A stretch of 20,835 nucleotides of DNA from a virus. Where the stretch lies: IMG/VR virus record IMGVR_UViG_3300036719_002287, positions 1 to 20,835 of that record; one strand, given 5' to 3'. The notes under the pieces are model-generated. The model ran no database searches. It had not been told where the DNA came from and worked only from the letters and a program-made list of their open reading frames with translations. This document shows, piece by piece, positions 2,740 to 18,447 of this stretch. Positions within the stretch are counted from its first letter, which is position 1, and every line of letters starts with the position of its first letter. The translations under genes were made by a program, and so were the position numbers.

Positions 2740-4221
2740 CTAGGTCACCCGCTTCCAGCGAGGCGAATCACGACCAATCGAGAGATTCAGCCCAACCGCC
2801 GGGACATCAGTGGCCGACTTGTCCTGCACCGTCAAGCGGGAGAGTGCTTCCTTGTACGCCTGCATGGTCGTCTCGGCGTCACCAGCCATCGACTTGCCAA
2901 CTTGACGCGCGAGTTGATAGTCCATTGCGCGCTTTAACACTTCCAGGTGCACCGGATCCCAGTCGGCAATATCGGTATCGTTGACCAGCCGCGCCGGGCG
3001 AGCGAAGTAGGTGTAGTTCAGCATCTCGTCACTCTGCGGATACGGCCAGCAGATGAACGAACCATTGGCCACACAGAACACATCAGCGAATCGCTGCGAG
3101 TAGACCGCCGCGCTCTCGGCCTCCATGACATCCGCCAGCGACATGGGCGTAGCACCCCAGCCCCACCGCTGACCGGGCAGATTCTTGTGGAAGCGCCAGA
3201 GATCGTCGGGTAGATCGTACTCGTTCTGGTACAGGATGTAGGTAGCGCCAGAGATGGTCGTAGCACCCCAGACATCCGCCATCGTCAGCGTGTCATTGTC
3301 GGCACGGGTGTAGACATCAATGATCTGGTTCTGGACGAACAGCTTACCGCTGGCTGCCCACGACGGCCACGTTCCGCCAACCAATTCCACATTAGCGCTG
3401 CCGTTGGTGATCGTGATGGTTCCGGTGGAGTACGGACCATGCAGGCTGAGCATCGCCCGGCGCAGCAGATGCGGCCACAGACGCTCACTGGACACCATAT
3501 CCAGCGCATCGTTGGCCACGCTCTTGATAATCGTGTCGGCCTTGCTGCCAACCGAGTCAACGAACTGGCGGCGGATGTAGGCCCACAACTGAGCAGCAGA
3601 CATCGGGTTCGCAGTGCTGCCAGCCGTCAGTGCAATGTCCGCACCAGGGCCGGTGACCGTACCACCGCTGACAACGATGGTAGCCGAAGCCTGCGTGTAG
3701 CCGTTCAACTGGGCGCGCACCGTAAATGTGCCGTCTGATAGGTAGACCGGACCCCACAGACCGCTGGCATCAGTCGTAGCCTGCGTGATGAAGGTCGCGC
3801 CAAGGGTGATGTAGACCGTGGCGTTGGCCAGCGGCGATGCGCCATCGGTCACGCGACCATCAGCAGCCGTAGCAGTAAAGCTGGACGGGGTAGAACCGCT
3901 GGTGCCGGTGTCGTTGACCACGTAAATCTGGTTGAAGGCGTCCAGTGGCGAAGCGGTGCGGATGATCTGGAGGACGTAGGTGCCGTTGGTGGCCACGAAC
4001 GCGCTCGACGCAACCTCAACCTCGTACTCACCGGGGTTATTAGCTGCGCTGACCTCAGTTACGGTGATACCAGCGGTGGACTGGTTGCCAACACCGTCCA
4101 GCGACAGCCGCTTGGTAAAACTGCCATCAGTCAGGCCGGTAACAAACGCCCCGGTTCCGTCCTGAATCACAATGACATCCCGCAGAGTCGTTGATTTCCG
4201 GTGGTAGACTATGCTGGACAT
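2740..4221 (-). CDS. Adaptor-like head-tail protein with N-terminal Ig-like domains, 493 aa
   Basis: The C-terminal half (about 210-493) resembles podovirus adaptor or tail-tube-A-like proteins, which bind the portal and link it to the nozzle. Features are AAQLWAYIRRQFVDSVGSK, a helical part, a strand block including NQIIDVYTRADNDTLTMADV, the YDLPDDLWRFHKN segment, CWPYPQSDEMLNYTYFARPA, and final helices (HLEVLKRAMDYQLARQVGK). Ahead of it lie two beta domains. Residues about 1-110 hold RDVIVIQDGTGAFVTGLTDG, and about 120-205 form a carboxypeptidase-regulatory-like fold (DGASPLANATVYITLG, then GTFTVRAQLNGYTQASATI). Such added Ig-like modules usually sit on the virion surface. The next gene starts one base after the stop. 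The adaptor call is by pattern and context. Confidence 0.68.
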   Translation of the reverse strand: MSSIVYHRKSTTLRDVIVIQDGTGAFVTGLTDGSFTKRLSLDGVGNQSTAGITVTEVSAANNPGEYEVEVASSAFVATNGTYVLQIIRTASPLDAFNQIYVVNDTGTSGSTPSSFTATAADGRVTDGASPLANATVYITLGATFITQATTDASGLWGPVYLSDGTFTVRAQLNGYTQASATIVVSGGTVTGPGADIALTAGSTANPMSAAQLWAYIRRQFVDSVGSKADTIIKSVANDALDMVSSERLWPHLLRRAMLSLHGPYSTGTITITNGSANVELVGGTWPSWAASGKLFVQNQIIDVYTRADNDTLTMADVWGATTISGATYILYQNEYDLPDDLWRFHKNLPGQRWGWGATPMSLADVMEAESAAVYSQRFADVFCVANGSFICWPYPQSDEMLNYTYFARPARLVNDTDIADWDPVHLEVLKRAMDYQLARQVGKSMAGDAETTMQAYKEALSRLTVQDKSATDVPAVGLNLSIGRDSPRWKRVT

Positions 4222-4463
4222 ATGGGTTGCTCAATAGTATGCAAAAGTGTGGGATCGCAAGCAATAGCCCGCTGGATACACGCGGAAGCCATCGGCTCAT
4301 GGACGCATAGACCGAATACCAACAGGCTCTTAGGATCCAGTACGTTCACGGACTGCTCAAACCCGAACTTACGGAAGCGATGCCCCATGCAGCGGAGCGC
4401 ATAGGTGTGTGCTAGCCGCTTAGCAGGCGTCCAATCAGGCCACAGTTTCTCATCAAGATCCAT
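4209..4463 (-). CDS. Small unknown protein, 84 aa
   Basis: The frame starts inside the end of the DUF115-like gene (11-nt overlap) and ends 13 nt inside the next gene, so it is coupled on both sides. The sequence (MDLDEKLWPDWTPAKRLAHT, a RFRKFGFEQ segment, several Cys and His) has no signal or membrane segment, and I do not recognise it. The Cys residues (25, 53, 62, 68 and 82) are not arranged in clear CxxC pairs. The close coupling suggests it works with either the DUF115-like enzyme or the adaptor-like protein. Confidence 0.62.
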   Translation of the reverse strand: MDLDEKLWPDWTPAKRLAHTYALRCMGHRFRKFGFEQSVNVLDPKSLLVFGLCVHEPMASACIQRAIACDPTLLHTIEQPICPA

Positions 4464-5577
4464 GGTCTGCCCAATACTGTAAGGAACGGAAGCTATTTAG
4501 GATGGCATCGCGGAGCATGGTGTACGCCTGCGGCTCGGTCAGCGGCAGGGTGCGCCGGAGGATGCTGACGGACAGGTAGACGGTCTGGAGCAGCACCTGA
4601 CCCAGTTGATGGTCCTCTTTATCGAACAGAGCGCCTACAGTAAGCCCGTTGGCGTCTGTAGCCTTCTCTGCCCGTTCTACGGCCTGTCGGATGATCTGGC
4701 CTAGTTGCCCGATTCTGGTGCCGTTCGTGGCTGTACGGTCAACAGGACGCGGCTGGAGGCATGGCTTGTTGCCTAGGACTGGGGACAGCGGCTTAGACTC
4801 GGCTCCCTTGAGGACTGCACCGCCGGGCGCACACTGGACGATACGGCACATAGTAGCCATACCCTCCAGTTCGTTGAGTGCCTGCCGGTAGACCCGGTTG
4901 CTGGCCCGCTCTACGCCATCGGCGCACATGACAGATCCGCATTGCTTCTCTTCAGCGAATGCAAATCCTGCATAGTGCCCTTGGGCGAGGTCATGACCGA
5001 CTAGCCAGCAGGTGCCAGTGGCCATACGAGCGGCGATCCATGCCGATAGGGTGCCGGAGGTCGTAGAGACGGGGATATCCTCACGGCTGATGCCCAGCCA
5101 ACGGCTCACTTTCCCTACATCACCGACCAGATAGTGACGGCTGCACATATCAGGCGCATGCGGCACAAGGGGTAAGCCAGCGTAGACGACACTGGACGGC
5201 AGGGGCAGCGGGATCTTGTCGGGATCTGGCAATCGCTCCTTGGGACAGATGACATGCGGAGTGATACCACATGCAATCAGCCGTGGGATTGCTGAATGTG
5301 AGGCCACAATCAACACTTTGTCCTGCGCCTCACGCAGAAATGGGATATATTGGTCCAGACTTGGGCCAGAACCGACCGATATGCTATCGCCATGGTAGAT
5401 GCCAACAGGCAGCGGATCAGCGTTTAGAAGCCAGGCGTTGCTTTTTATGACATCTATCCCAATCACAGTGTCCAAAATATCATCACCAAACGTCAAGAAA
5501 TGCGACTCGTGCAGTTCCAGCGTCGGATCTTCCAGACGATTAAGTATGGTGACAACCGGCGTAGAACTGTGCTCCAT
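4453..5577 (-). CDS. DUF115 / MptE-like (Maf-type) domain protein, 374 aa
   Basis: The domain family includes archaeal 6-hydroxymethylpterin diphosphokinase MptE and bacterial Maf motility-accessory factors, which are linked to adding nonulosonic acids to flagellin. Family marks visible here are SVGSGPSLDQYIPFL (67-81), the Gly-rich nucleotide-binding-like loop; a strand KVLIVASHSAIPRLIACGIT (87-106) followed by PHVICPKE; and TSGTLSAWIAARMATGTCWL with VGHDLAQ (173-198). The C-terminal part (about 285-374) is helical. The start follows GGAGG. It lies between head and tail genes and overlaps the next gene by 11 nt. The domain call is confident. The substrate is unknown: a glycosyl- or pyrophosphoryl-transferase acting on virion or host-surface sugars is an inference. 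Confidence 0.8.
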   Translation of the reverse strand: MEHSSTPVVTILNRLEDPTLELHESHFLTFGDDILDTVIGIDVIKSNAWLLNADPLPVGIYHGDSISVGSGPSLDQYIPFLREAQDKVLIVASHSAIPRLIACGITPHVICPKERLPDPDKIPLPLPSSVVYAGLPLVPHAPDMCSRHYLVGDVGKVSRWLGISREDIPVSTTSGTLSAWIAARMATGTCWLVGHDLAQGHYAGFAFAEEKQCGSVMCADGVERASNRVYRQALNELEGMATMCRIVQCAPGGAVLKGAESKPLSPVLGNKPCLQPRPVDRTATNGTRIGQLGQIIRQAVERAEKATDANGLTVGALFDKEDHQLGQVLLQTVYLSVSILRRTLPLTEPQAYTMLRDAILNSFRSLQYWADHGS

Positions 5578-5719
5578 ACAAATCCTCCGGCACGCTTGTA
5601 AGTTGAGACAGCAGGGAGTCAACGGCAGGGTCCGGTGACAAACGAACAACCACCCGCCCAAAGAGCGAGTGGTTGACGCCGGGGTCTACCCGGTAATCAC
5701 AATCTTCAGCCGTCAGTTC
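5540..5719 (-). other. Unassigned open frame after the decoration gene (59 codons, no ordinary start)
   Basis: The 140 bases between the decoration stop and the next gene are not obviously empty. In the +1 frame relative to the decoration gene they read ELTAEDCDYRVDPGVNHSLF and continue with plausible coding composition (RLSPDPAVDSLLSQLTSVPE) to a TAA at 5540, overlapping the next gene by 38 nt. There is no ATG. The choices are a CTG at 5716, a GTG at 5653 with a poor ribosome site, or a +1 frameshift at the decoration stop (AUC UGA A). None is convincing, and it may also be a decayed gene or chance. Confidence 0.3.
5584..5588 (-). promoter_or_regulatory. Strong ribosome binding site for the DUF115-like gene
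   Basis: GGAGG on the coding strand, six bases before the ATG at 5577, fixes that start over an ATG-equivalent 28 codons upstream. Confidence 0.7.
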
Positions 5720-6242
5720 AGATGAGACCGGCGAGGACCGCAGTCCCGTCGCCCGAGAGGGCAACGACAGCCGACTGGGTGAGATAGCTGTTGTTGCGCA
5801 GCTGCTGGGCAAGGCTGACGGTGATGCTGGTGATCTGGGCATACGCGAGGATAAGACCCAGCGACTGCACAGCAAGGCCGTCCTGCACAGCGGTCGTGTC
5901 GATCAGGGTGCAACCCGACAGGATGGTGCACGGGCCGCCGACCTGAAGCAGGAAGTAGTCGCCAGCGATCAGGCTGGTGGTGCCAGTCGAACCCTTCTGA
6001 CCCTTGGGGATGACGCCGAAAGCGTAGCCCTGGGGGTTGGCCGGGAGGTCAACGTTCCAGGTCGGCGCACCAGCGACGAACTCAGTGACAACGCCGCGAC
6101 CACCGGCATCAGCCAGAGTCGTGACGAGCTTGGCGACAATGTAGATCTTGCCATTGGCAAAGACCAGCTTGCCGAGATCAGCCTTGTGAGCGGCGTTGGA
6201 CGAAGCCGTGCCGACAGTGATGGGAGCGTGAAGGAGAGACAT
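5718..6242 (-). CDS. Probable capsid decoration or head-associated protein, 174 aa
   Basis: This Ala/Gly/Val/Thr-rich protein follows the capsid gene after a 92-nt gap holding a hairpin. Its order of short strands (HKADLGKLVFANGKIYIVAK, QGYAFGVIPKGQKGSTGTTS, DYFLLQVGGPCTILSGCTL) and its size fit a small all-beta head protein such as a decoration or cement protein. It has two cysteines nine residues apart, and the C-terminus is helical (LILAYAQITSITVSLAQQL). The start at 6242 has only a weak purine-rich site. Function is inferred from position after the capsid gene and composition. An out-of-frame open stretch begins right at its stop. Confidence 0.72.
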   Translation of the reverse strand: MSLLHAPITVGTASSNAAHKADLGKLVFANGKIYIVAKLVTTLADAGGRGVVTEFVAGAPTWNVDLPANPQGYAFGVIPKGQKGSTGTTSLIAGDYFLLQVGGPCTILSGCTLIDTTAVQDGLAVQSLGLILAYAQITSITVSLAQQLRNNSYLTQSAVVALSGDGTAVLAGLI

Positions 6243-6334: not shown

Positions 6335-7651
6335 TCAGGCCGCACCGCTGTACGGGCTGGCGCGACCGAAGTAGCGCGGGTTGCAGATCAACTGGCCGGG
6401 GAAGGTGCACGAGGTGAGCCACTGGCGACGATTCGGGTCGCGGGTGATCTCAGTCTCCAGGATACCGGCGTCCTCACCGCTGACCTTCAGCGGGTTGCCA
6501 TCTTCCAGTCCACGGTACAGCGGCTGCACCTTGAGCTTCATCTGCGCGCCTGGGAAGGCATAGGCGGTGTTGGCGGGCATCAGATCGTCCCAGAACCAGG
6601 CAACGCCCTGGTGCATGATGACATCGGTCGGCCAGCCAGTCTCAGCCACGTTGATGGCCTTGTTGGTGTTGCTGACAAAGATCGTCTCACGGACGGCCTT
6701 CTTGCGGCCCAGGTACTCAAAGAAGTTGCGGTCCAGGATGCCGACCGTGGGCTTCTTCATGCGGTCCGAGTTGCTGAAGCGGCTCAGACGGAACACGAGG
6801 TACGACAGGAAGATTTCGATGGCGTCATCTTCGTCGCTCAGAGTGCCGGTCCACGAGGACGAGGCGGAGTTGACCAGGGTCGGGGTCCAAGCGTCCCACT
6901 GAGCCGAGTCAACAGCAAGCTGACCGGGCTTCAGGGCCAGGCCGAGGTACTTGTTGCTGCCATTGACGGCCACTTCCTTGTCGGCGGCAACAGGAGCAGC
7001 GCCCGTCAGGGTGCCGGTTCCGGTCGAAGTCGTCGGAGGGGTGTAGCCTTCGATGTCGTAGTCGCCAATCGCAGTGCCGGTCGCGGGCGATCCGCCAGCG
7101 GTGACCGCGCCCATGGCGTAGGTCGCGCTGCCGTCATAGCCGTTGCCGGGGAGCAGGGTCGGCAGACCCTCAATCGGCAGGCCCGAGCCAGCGTAGATGC
7201 TGGAGTTCATCTGGAGCATCTGGTGACGCAGGCCGTTCTCAGCGGTGATCGTGTCACGGATCATCGCAGGGATCTCGCTCTTGCTCAGATCAACGATCGC
7301 GCTGCCCTTGTTGCGGCGCAGAGCACCACGGTCCAGAGCGGTCGCGTTCACGACCTCAGCGAAGTTCGCAACCCAACGCTGGTAGCGCTTCTTGTGGGTG
7401 AACAGAGCCGAGATGTCCTGACCGGGGGCCGAGATCGACGGCAGGATGCGACCCGCCTCGATAGCGCCGGACAGTTCATAGGTCTGCGACTGAAGTTGGG
7501 TGCCATCAGAGCCGCCCTGCACGTCGTATTCAATCGCGCCAGCCTTCTTGATCTCCTTGAAGAGGGGATCATGGTCGCTGACGCCTTCCCAAGCGCCGCG
7601 AGCGACGTTGGCAAGAGTGGTGGTGGAAACGGGATCCTGTGAGCCGGACAT
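6335..7651 (-). CDS. Major capsid protein, 438 aa
   Basis: The gene follows scaffold and portal, has the usual length, and reads like an HK97-fold shell protein. It has an N-terminal arm (SGSQDPVSTTTLANVARGAW), an early strand pair, a helical spine region (KSEIPAMIRDTITAENGLRH), a Gly/Thr-rich insertion at about residues 170-240, a P-domain-like segment (DRMKKPTVGILDRNFFEYLG), and a C-terminal part with ETEITRDPNRRQWLTSCTFPG. The Gly/Thr-rich insertion could be a surface loop or small added domain. The ATG is four bases after the scaffold stop region, with only a weak GAAAG site, so translation may be partly coupled. The identity is by position and pattern, not by a single catalytic motif. 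Confidence 0.87.
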   Translation of the reverse strand: MSGSQDPVSTTTLANVARGAWEGVSDHDPLFKEIKKAGAIEYDVQGGSDGTQLQSQTYELSGAIEAGRILPSISAPGQDISALFTHKKRYQRWVANFAEVVNATALDRGALRRNKGSAIVDLSKSEIPAMIRDTITAENGLRHQMLQMNSSIYAGSGLPIEGLPTLLPGNGYDGSATYAMGAVTAGGSPATGTAIGDYDIEGYTPPTTSTGTGTLTGAAPVAADKEVAVNGSNKYLGLALKPGQLAVDSAQWDAWTPTLVNSASSSWTGTLSDEDDAIEIFLSYLVFRLSRFSNSDRMKKPTVGILDRNFFEYLGRKKAVRETIFVSNTNKAINVAETGWPTDVIMHQGVAWFWDDLMPANTAYAFPGAQMKLKVQPLYRGLEDGNPLKVSGEDAGILETEITRDPNRRQWLTSCTFPGQLICNPRYFGRASPYSGAA

Positions 7652-8765: not shown

Positions 8766-9062
8766 TTATGCTTTGGTGACCACGAAGCCGCGACGGTGGC
8801 CCTCGTCAATGGCTTCCTGCTGGCTCTTGGCGTAGTACGGGCTGCGGACATCGTAGTCCAACTGGCTGATGCGCCTGCCCTTGCCGTTGTTCTCGGTAGA
8901 CCACGCCTTGCTATCGCCACAGACAAATGCTGGCGAGTTGATCATGCGCTTGGCAATGGTGCCGCAGTCAGGGCACTCAATCGCGCCATCACGCTTGGCG
9001 ATGGGGACGATCTCGTCAAAGATGCACTTGCAGGCAGGGCATTCAAAATCGAAAGACGGCAC
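8766..9062 (-). CDS. FmdB-type zinc-ribbon protein, 98 aa
   Basis: The N-terminus has the FmdB/CxxC zinc-ribbon layout: F.FECPACKCIFDE with Cys8/Cys11 and IECPDCG with Cys30/Cys33, followed by SPAFVCGD. The family is widespread in bacteria and phages and is annotated as a putative regulatory protein, but its biochemical role is not established. The C-terminal half is charged (RISQLDYDVRSPYYAKSQQE). It starts at a GTG behind a strong ribosome site, just after a likely promoter, and sits between portal and scaffold. A role in late-gene control, or as a small virion or assembly factor, is possible. The zinc-binding fold is well supported; the function is not. Confidence 0.82.
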   Translation of the reverse strand: MPSFDFECPACKCIFDEIVPIAKRDGAIECPDCGTIAKRMINSPAFVCGDSKAWSTENNGKGRRISQLDYDVRSPYYAKSQQEAIDEGHRRGFVVTKA

Positions 9063-16349: not shown

Positions 16350-16876
16350 GTCTTAGCAGTGATAAGGGCAGATCCGAGCCGGTCAATTTCGTAATGCGCG
16401 TCAAGCCCATTCAGGAAGCAGGACGTTCCCGCGCTCAGCGCCAGCGACAGGCGAGCATGCAGGATGCTGCTGATCTTGCGATTCGTTCCGGTCAGCGTGG
16501 CAGAGAAGTTGGCCGTCTGCATCTGCCACGCAGTCATCGCGCTATTGAACGCGATGGTGGTCGTTTCCTTGGCCGACAGCGCAGCGCCCGTGACGTTGCT
16601 TAGATGGTAGATCACCTCCAGCGTCCACGTGCCGGTGTAGGTCGCAGACGTTGACGGCATCCAGTGCAGATGCGGCGTCAGAACCGTGCCCTCGCTGTAA
16701 TTGTGCGGAAGTTGCTGGTCGGGGAAGTGCAGCGACTCGCCGTTGGTGAACTCCCAAGCCAGGATGCCCGTACCGTTCACATCGGCCAGCGCAGCGGGGG
16801 AGCTAGGAGGCGCACCAGCAGAACCGGCCCAGCGCCAATCGCCATAGTCGGCGTTGATGAGGCGGGTATTGCTCAC
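16346..16876 (-). CDS. Beta-rich virion-like protein, 176 aa, unknown function
   Basis: The protein begins MSNTRLINADYGDWRW and contains LTPHLHWMPS, a TGTWTLEVIYHL strand pair and a C-terminal LNGLDAHYEIDRLGS. This alternating-strand pattern resembles single-domain jelly-roll proteins often found beside phage fibres, so a virion or fibre-tip role is likely but not shown. I chose the GTG at 16876, which forms a 4-nt GTGA overlap with the fibre stop, over a TTG four codons upstream, because the same junction type recurs across the window. The stop overlaps the following lipoprotein gene by ATGA. It has no signal peptide, membrane segment or catalytic motif that I can see. Confidence 0.72.
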   Translation of the reverse strand: MSNTRLINADYGDWRWAGSAGAPPSSPAALADVNGTGILAWEFTNGESLHFPDQQLPHNYSEGTVLTPHLHWMPSTSATYTGTWTLEVIYHLSNVTGAALSAKETTTIAFNSAMTAWQMQTANFSATLTGTNRKISSILHARLSLALSAGTSCFLNGLDAHYEIDRLGSALITAKT

Positions 16877-18447
16877 AGGATCACCCAATCGGTGCCGTTA
16901 GCGACGATCTGGAGCGACTGCCCAGCGGTCAGGACCACGGTGGTCGTGCCGTCGATGGTGTCAGACCCGGCGCGGTTGACGGTCAGGTTGCCGGTGCTGC
17001 GGTTCTTGATGAATAGGACGCGACCGGATGCGGCAGCAGGCAGCGTGAACGTCTGTGTAGTGCTGCCTGTGCAGACTGCCAAGTGGTCGGTGCCGTCCAG
17101 CGTGGTTGTACCGGCGGCGCTGGTTACGCTGCGGACGCCGATCTTGCGAGCGTTTCCGGTGACCAGCGACTTCGCCACACTCAACCCGCCGCTCAGTCGC
17201 ACCGAGCCGTCGCTGGTGGTCATTGCGTCGGTGGTGTTGTTGACGGTCAGTATTCCAGAGCCGTCGATAGTCGCAGATACAGTTGTGCTGCGGCGGAACT
17301 CAGTGATATTTGCACTGGCATGCGATGTGCCAAACATGCGTATATTTGCACCCTGTGCGCTACCAGATCCAGCGGCGATTCTAAGCTCGACATTCGTTCT
17401 ATCGGAATAGATATATGTGTAATCAGCATCGGCTGTAGTGAGTAGTTGGAATCCGCCGCCAAAACCGGCGCCGGTGCCCTGATAGACTGCAGCAGCAACG
17501 CCCGCCACTGATACCCCAATAGAGGTAGAACTTAACCGATACAACCCGCTCGCCTCGCTCGTCAGTCGGATCCCCGGCGCGGCGGCGGTTCCATTGCCCC
17601 CCTGGATTGTGGTGGCGGCAAAAAGGCCCTGATCGGTCAGCAGAGCGGCATAGACGCCAGATACGGCAAACCCGAGTGTAGTGCTGTTGAACCGATACAG
17701 CCCGTGCGCCTCGCTGGTCAGCCGTATCCCCGGCGCGGCGGCGGTGCCGTTGGGGAAGATCATCCCGCTGCCGGCCAGGGTTAGCTGACCGACTCCAGAC
17801 CGCGACAGCGTGGTGTCACCTGCGGCGGTTCCGTCGCCCCAGACATGCGTGCCGCTGGCTGCGATGAGAAGTCGAACGTTGGCGTCACCAGCGACGGAAA
17901 TTGTTTGGGCGGTATTTCCAGACGCCGCTCTGGTTGCCGTGATCGTGCTGGTGAATGTGCCGCTGGTCGCAGAGATGGAACTGGAGCAGGTGACCGCGCC
18001 TGCGCTGTCGATGGTCAGGCGAACAGTATTATTCGTAGCCAGCGAAAGCGCTACTGCATCGGTTGTCCCGATAGCGAAGGCGGTATGCGCCGACGAAAAG
18101 ATCGACGCCATGCCAGCCCGAGCCAGGCCGAATTGCGTGCCGCTGCGGGCTACGCCGTAGGCTGCTTGACTCAGTGTGCCGGTGCCGTTGCTGGTTATCG
18201 TCCTCGCTTCGGCTGACGTTCCGGCTGCGTCAGTATTGCGCGACAAGATCTGGATGATGCCGTTGCTTGCTGCCGATACCGTTTGGCTGACAGTGAATGT
18301 CTGCGCGACTTCAAGCCCGGCGACGGTGATCGCCGCATCAGGGAACGTCGCGGTGCGGGCGGTGGTGCCGGCCTTGGTGAGGGTGAGGGTGCCGGAGATG
18401 CCCGTGGTGCCAAGCCCCGGCTGACGATCCTGAGAGGTCTTAATCAT
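16873..18447 (-). CDS. Tail-fibre-like protein with stalk repeats, 524 aa
   Basis: This Ser/Thr/Ala/Gly-rich protein resembles trimeric phage fibres, which bind the host surface. Segments such as TNNTVRLTIDSAGAVT (about residues 139-154), a near-duplicated block starting NGTAAAPGIRLTSEA at residues 233 and 285, and TTDAMTTSDGSVRLSGGLSV (405-424) are typical of fibre stalk elements. The C-terminus (about 455-524, from HLAVCTGSTTQTFTLPAA to the final NGTDWVIL) is a beta-rich domain seen at the ends of many virion proteins. No chaperone-of-endosialidase Ser-Asp cleavage site is evident. The gene is joined to the terminase gene by a 1-nt TAATG overlap and to the next by a GTGA overlap. The fibre role is inferred from composition and repeat style. 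Confidence 0.72.
   Translation of the reverse strand: MIKTSQDRQPGLGTTGISGTLTLTKAGTTARTATFPDAAITVAGLEVAQTFTVSQTVSAASNGIIQILSRNTDAAGTSAEARTITSNGTGTLSQAAYGVARSGTQFGLARAGMASIFSSAHTAFAIGTTDAVALSLATNNTVRLTIDSAGAVTCSSSISATSGTFTSTITATRAASGNTAQTISVAGDANVRLLIAASGTHVWGDGTAAGDTTLSRSGVGQLTLAGSGMIFPNGTAAAPGIRLTSEAHGLYRFNSTTLGFAVSGVYAALLTDQGLFAATTIQGGNGTAAAPGIRLTSEASGLYRLSSTSIGVSVAGVAAAVYQGTGAGFGGGFQLLTTADADYTYIYSDRTNVELRIAAGSGSAQGANIRMFGTSHASANITEFRRSTTVSATIDGSGILTVNNTTDAMTTSDGSVRLSGGLSVAKSLVTGNARKIGVRSVTSAAGTTTLDGTDHLAVCTGSTTQTFTLPAAASGRVLFIKNRSTGNLTVNRAGSDTIDGTTTVVLTAGQSLQIVANGTDWVIL
17479..17751 (-). repeat. Tandem 156-bp (52-codon) repeat inside the tail-fibre gene
   Basis: A 52-residue unit (residues 233-284) is followed at once by a second, partial copy (from residue 285 to about 323). 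Both open with NGTAAAPGIRLTSEA.GLYR and differ at scattered positions further on. At the DNA level the copies are closely alike at their start, around 17537-17595 and 17693-17751, which suggests in-frame duplication with later drift. The repeat presumably lengthens the fibre shaft. Confidence 0.75.

Follow-up and report, generated by a model that had tools for sequence, protein, structure and literature searches.

What does a gene of the Maf/MptE-like (DUF115) family do inside the head-tail gene block of a tailed phage? The question is raised by an IMG/VR virus record (IMGVR_UViG_3300036719_002287), of which positions 1 to 20,835, the whole stretch analysed, are referred to here as the window. 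A first reading of the letters and their open frames, the original prediction, had placed such an enzyme next to a small overlapping gene and had connected the family with MptE pyrophosphokinases and with Maf proteins of flagellin modification. To our knowledge, sugar-coated particle proteins of phages are known in few groups only.

The PF01973 gene and its product

The gene lies on the minus strand, with an ATG at 5577, a Shine-Dalgarno-like GGAGGA just 5' of it and a stop at 4453, and the plus strand across the same interval carries many stops. The original prediction had given no strand; the open frame fills the predicted interval exactly, and the three motifs that had been read from it (GSGPSLD, GITPHVICPKE and TSGTLSAW...VGHDLAQ) are present. 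Membership in DUF115, expected over residues 60-200, is confirmed by Pfam, where the 374-aa protein matches PF01973 ("MptE-like", formerly DUF115) over residues 65-198 with an E-value of 4.4e-12 and 46.5 bits, the curated cut-off being 34.6 bits. A family search of the records found PF01973 above the cut-off in seven related records as well. In NCBIfam, the model of the flagellin modification protein PseD matches residues 29-116 below its cut-off; this match spans the segment preceding and including the GPSLD loop, and the copy encoded by the relative L007 also matches the PseD model. PHROGs has no family for the protein. The domain motifs are invariant between the window copy and the L007 copy, and both this gene (dN/dS 0.03-0.14) and the adjacent 84-aa gene (0.07 in the one computable pair) look to be under strong purifying selection. 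The PF01973 gene and its motifs are more than chance.

Table 1. Features discussed in the text. Positions are those of the window, except for the three genes located on L033.
Feature	Position	Strand	Remarks
SU10-type adaptor protein	2740..4221	(-)	PF24175, E 5.3e-10; downstream flank of the cassette
84-aa companion gene	4209..4463	(-)	follows the PF01973 gene in the cassette and was found next to that gene only; both are missing from L012-L014 and L029
PF01973 (MptE-like/DUF115) protein, 374 aa	4453..5577	(-)	proposed truncated Maf-like nonulosonic acid transferase
PF01973 domain, residues 65-198	4984..5385	(-)	carries the GSGPSLD, ITPHVICPKE and TSGT...GHD motifs
Hairpin, 13 pairs, loop of 3	5647..5675	(-)	in the gap before the cassette; from a consensus scan
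174-aa capsid-adjacent protein	5718..6242	(-)	next gene downstream of the capsid gene; only its position suggests a decoration-like protein; candidate acceptor
Probable major capsid protein	6335..7651	(-)	from position and the L029 homologue; flanking marker and second candidate acceptor
CMP-nonulosonate synthetase-like (NeuA-like)	L033 3998..3312		PF02348; PseF model E 5.7e-35
Hydrolysing UDP-GlcNAc 2-epimerase-like (NeuC-like)	L033 5194..3998		NeuC_NnaA above cut-off
Sialic acid synthase-like with SAF domain (NeuB-like)	L033 6378..5062		PF03102; NeuB_NnaB E 1.8e-77

Relationship to Maf and MptE

In Maf enzymes, a central PF01973 domain that resembles the sialyltransferase Cst-II precedes a helical domain at the C-terminus; the known enzymes act on flagellin, and some accept CMP-Neu5Ac (PMC11339370). 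As judged from profile comparisons and a predicted structure, the 374-aa protein resembles these flagellin glycosyltransferases more than it resembles MptE. A profile of six phage copies, compared with the sequences in the PDB, matched Maf of Magnetospirillum magneticum (5mu5) with an E-value of 1.3e-4 and the MptE/HPPK of M. jannaschii with 0.058. The original prediction had proposed a structural comparison with both families, and this gave the same order: Foldseek, applied to an AlphaFold model of low confidence (pLDDT 53), ranked 5mu5 at the top (E 6.8e-7) and MptE next (0.039). However, both structure models obtained are poor (pLDDT 53 and 44), so that the fold match applies to local segments only, in which the model is reliable. 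VIA-align superposed the first model on 5mu5 with a Z of 6.1 over 238 residues and an rmsd of 20 Å, amid unrelated helical proteins, and was used for the aligned range alone, residues 275-645 of 5mu5 including the C-terminal helical part. As the aligned range begins with the PF01973 domain and continues to the end of 5mu5, the phage protein resembles a Maf that lacks the N-terminal domain. Helices are predicted at residues 288-372 and aligned within the same range of 5mu5, in a model of low confidence and in a class of folds where helical matches are common. The Rossmann-like N-terminal domain of Maf is absent, about 64 residues preceding the PF01973 domain compared with about 270 in 5mu5, and the N-terminal part of the phage protein has no family match at E<=1. 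A Paenibacillus protein of Maf-like architecture shares 29% identity with the phage protein over the domain.

The phage protein has in common with Maf (PseD/Maf; 5mu5) the PF01973 domain, the GxGPSL loop and a G-[HQ]-D-L motif, and probably also a C-terminal helical region after the domain. It differs in its length (374 aa compared with about 630-760 aa), in the missing N-terminal domain and in the location of its gene among head genes, with no flagellar genes noticed nearby. With MptE (8sd5), the archaeal 6-hydroxymethyl-7,8-dihydropterin pyrophosphokinase of M. jannaschii, it shares PF01973 and part of the fold, but MptE is the weaker match and lacks the long C-terminal region, and the phage gene has no pterin context.

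A two-gene accessory cassette

The 84-aa gene overlaps the PF01973 gene by 11 bases and the adaptor gene by 13. Its product has no match in sequence-family searches including Pfam and PHROGs, and a scan for it found it solely next to the PF01973 gene. The original prediction had suspected a partner in this small gene, and the two indeed behave as linked companions, which are present or absent together.

The 374-aa protein is encoded completely or almost completely in seven IMG/VR records, and one more record breaks off inside the gene. The protein is 90-100% identical in six of the seven and 55% identical in L007 (record G007, 28.2 kb). On all contigs that span the site, the gene order is portal, zinc-ribbon protein, scaffold, capsid, 174-aa protein, PF01973 gene, 84-aa gene, adaptor and next virion gene. 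The cassette is present in L001-L007, and both of its genes are missing in L012-L014 and L029, although the flanks match; there 70-180 bases separate the 174-aa gene from the adaptor gene that follows it, and a family search confirmed that PF01973 is absent. The capsid proteins of these cassette-free records are 64% (L012, L013, L014) and 56% (L029) identical. The expectation that homologous phages keep the gene at this position therefore holds for the near relatives but fails for these four records. Their lack of the gene indicates an optional cassette and leaves the assignment to the enzyme family untouched. The two genes are gained or lost as a pair, the enzyme is dispensable for building this type of particle, and comparison of the records identifies the pair as an optional, moron-like accessory cassette and not a core structural gene.

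G+C at the third codon position in the window is 0.62 in the PF01973 gene and 0.57 in the 84-aa gene, compared with 0.69-0.80 in the neighbouring capsid and adaptor genes; the lower values are in keeping with a later acquisition, but one virion gene of L007 is equally low. The hairpin in the gap before the cassette (Table 1) is a possible weak terminator or processing site, and the region holds three terminator-like sites where 1.5 are expected in shuffles. A scan of the region found no sigma-70-like promoter near the cassette, the sigma-70 consensus being perhaps not the promoter type of this phage.

Covariation with head proteins

Four lineages, represented by the window, L007, L013 and L029, entered a test of how the sites of each head protein split by presence of the cassette. 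In the 174-aa protein, which has no family match in sequence-family searches including Pfam and PHROGs, 25 informative sites support the cassette split and one supports other splits. Identity in the last third of this protein is 40% and 60% within the groups and 6-20% between them. The capsid protein, whose L029 homologue matches the major head protein family phrog_9953 (E 7.1e-7), groups by cassette more weakly (22 sites compared with 5 and 4), and no such preference is seen in portal, scaffold or adaptor across the four lineages. No special link to the cassette was noticed for the fibre proteins, which the original prediction had named as possible substrates. The 174-aa and capsid proteins may be partners of the cassette, or the genes may form a recombination block that is inherited together; the four lineages fit both readings. 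The 174-aa protein itself is conserved in its N-terminal part, and its C-terminal third is wholly different between cassette-bearing and cassette-free phages.

Predicted nonulosonic acid pathway genes in a relative

The original prediction had linked the family to nonulosonic acids, and this link gained substance from the relative G007, which carries NeuA-, NeuB- and NeuC-like genes (Table 1). The three genes are adjacent and full-length and lie on the opposite strand, at positions 3312-6378 of L033, which correspond to 20.3-23.4 kb of G007. Their best matches among solved structures are the sialic acid synthase of N. meningitidis, a hydrolysing 2-epimerase of the legionaminic pathway and CMP-NeuAc synthetases. 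On one side they adjoin a long gene that ends the late block and overlaps the NeuA-like gene by 50 bases, and on the other side phage replication genes follow, an SSB-like and a DUF2800 protein being among the products encoded there. Being flanked by phage genes, they are part of a phage contig unless the contig is chimeric. Judged by these assignments, the gene set of G007 would in principle suffice for the conversion of UDP-GlcNAc to CMP-Neu5Ac; legionaminic acid is a possible product if the host supplies the precursor. Such genes in the relative may add a further likeness to Maf systems.

NeuB is rare in deposited phages, with hits in three of 50,697 records at an E-value of 1e-5, one of the three being a bacterial contig, and a scan of viral contigs for NeuB returned G007 itself only. 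PF01973 was also looked for in two unrelated phages that encode NeuB together with a cytidylyltransferase, and is absent from both; the co-occurrence of PF01973 with the Neu pathway is that of one relative, G007. The Neu-like genes are absent within the 20.8-kb window fragment, which ends before the corresponding region.

Proposed function and alternatives

From the family, the behaviour of the cassette, the covariation with head proteins and the pathway genes of one relative, we infer an activity, a donor, an acceptor and a role for the 84-aa protein. The shortened Maf-like glycosyltransferase would use a CMP-activated nonulosonic acid (a sialic-type sugar of nine carbons) as donor and transfer the sugar to Ser/Thr of a protein within the infected cell, with the 84-aa protein acting as an accessory. 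In G007, the NeuC-, NeuB- and NeuA-like enzymes would turn UDP-GlcNAc first into ManNAc, then into the nonulosonic acid and finally into the CMP-activated sugar. For the window phage, a donor supplied by the host is also conceivable. The acceptor would most likely belong to the phage's own head, the candidates being the capsid protein and the 174-aa protein encoded next to it. That the enzyme is a nonulosonic acid transferase we consider probable, and for a Maf-like transferase whose acceptor is a virion (head) protein the chances appear about even. More tentative, and with the odds against it, is the full picture of a tailed-phage lineage that synthesises its own CMP-activated sialic-type sugar and coats its capsid with it by means of a shortened Maf; the enzyme would come as a swap-in cassette paired with a fitting head protein, and the outcome would be a self-supplied sialylated particle.

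The acceptor of the same class of enzyme might instead be a host surface structure, such as flagellin, another surface protein or a glycan, and the altered surface of the infected cell might, for example, block a second phage. Such a role would agree with the action of known Maf enzymes on flagellin (PMC11339370) and with the prophage-encoded enzymes that alter host nonulosonic acids in Acinetobacter (PMC12053666). However, it is unlikely for a gene inside the late head-tail block, whose expression is expected when a surface change helps least; moreover, the covariation is with head proteins, and no integrase was noticed in an unsystematic inspection of the fragments. Transfer of the sugar to phage DNA or a small molecule, and not to a protein, is conceivable because phage glycosyltransferases often act on DNA, as PMC12619734 states. 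The Maf relatives act on proteins, though, genes for base hypermodification were not noticed in the stretches inspected, and the gene is located among head genes, all of which makes this reading very improbable.

Two further explanations concern the activity itself. A pterin pyrophosphokinase like archaeal MptE, which would feed the synthesis of a folate-type cofactor, is suggested by the Pfam family name and by the weak matches to the M. jannaschii HPPK 8sd5, but is highly doubtful in view of the better agreement with Maf in both the sequence and the fold comparison, of about 170 additional C-terminal residues, and of a neighbourhood in which no pterin genes were noticed, while the relative has NeuA/B/C-like genes instead. 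The loss of the N-terminal domain and the co-inheritance with a head protein would also suit a non-enzymatic or repurposed relative that has kept the fold as a chaperone or binding protein for the neighbouring head protein. This explanation seems rather improbable, because the domain motifs are invariant between copies of 55% identity, purifying selection is strong and pathway genes occur in G007. If the nonulosonic acid transferase is real, it would give the Maf family a small and flagellum-free member whose acceptor might be identified from one particle by mass spectrometry, and the label "MptE-like pyrophosphokinase" on many environmental phage genes would change.

Distribution and comparison with known phage systems

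Neither the enzyme nor the adaptor, portal and terminase has a match in the 50,697 deposited phage records, and scans of bacterial and archaeal genomes with short exact peptide patterns, which reach close relatives only, found no relative of the enzyme or the portal. The Maf-type domain of Paenibacillus, used as a query, also found no relative in the phage records. The lineage of the window phage seems to be known from metagenomes only. Comparison of the fold with viral proteins retrieved several "MptE-like" proteins of uncultured Caudovirales phages from BFVD (e.g. A0A6J5PG89), which belong to the same fold family as the 374-aa protein; the databases therefore already contain phage representatives of this family.

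The proposed modification has partial parallels. Virion glycosylation in mycobacteriophages (Freeman et al., 2023, cited in PMC12619734 and PMC12691614) is a related case in other hosts: passages of the two citing papers attribute it to glycosyltransferases that the phages encode and that decorate their capsid and tail proteins, and these passages mention no sialic-type pathway carried by a phage. The prophage genes epaA/epaB of Acinetobacter baumannii represent, as in G007, a phage-encoded nonulosonic acid metabolism, but they change the sugar of the host capsule, and no Maf-like transferase is described with them (PMC12053666). The open-licence literature yielded no phage Maf enzyme, no phage with genes for an activated sialic-type sugar together with a Maf-like enzyme, and no arrangement of pathway plus cassette.

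Other structural genes of the window

The adaptor protein carries an N-terminal extension with a carboxypeptidase-regulatory-like domain (below cut-off), which is unusual in an adaptor. Between the scaffold and portal genes, positions 8766-9062 encode a small zinc-ribbon-like protein (CPAC...CPDC) that is conserved in all four lineages. The fibre proteins have a high Ser/Thr content, and the fibre-like protein encoded at 16873-18447 is Ser/Thr-rich (27% S+T) with the repeated motif GNGTAAAPGIRLTSEA.GLYR.
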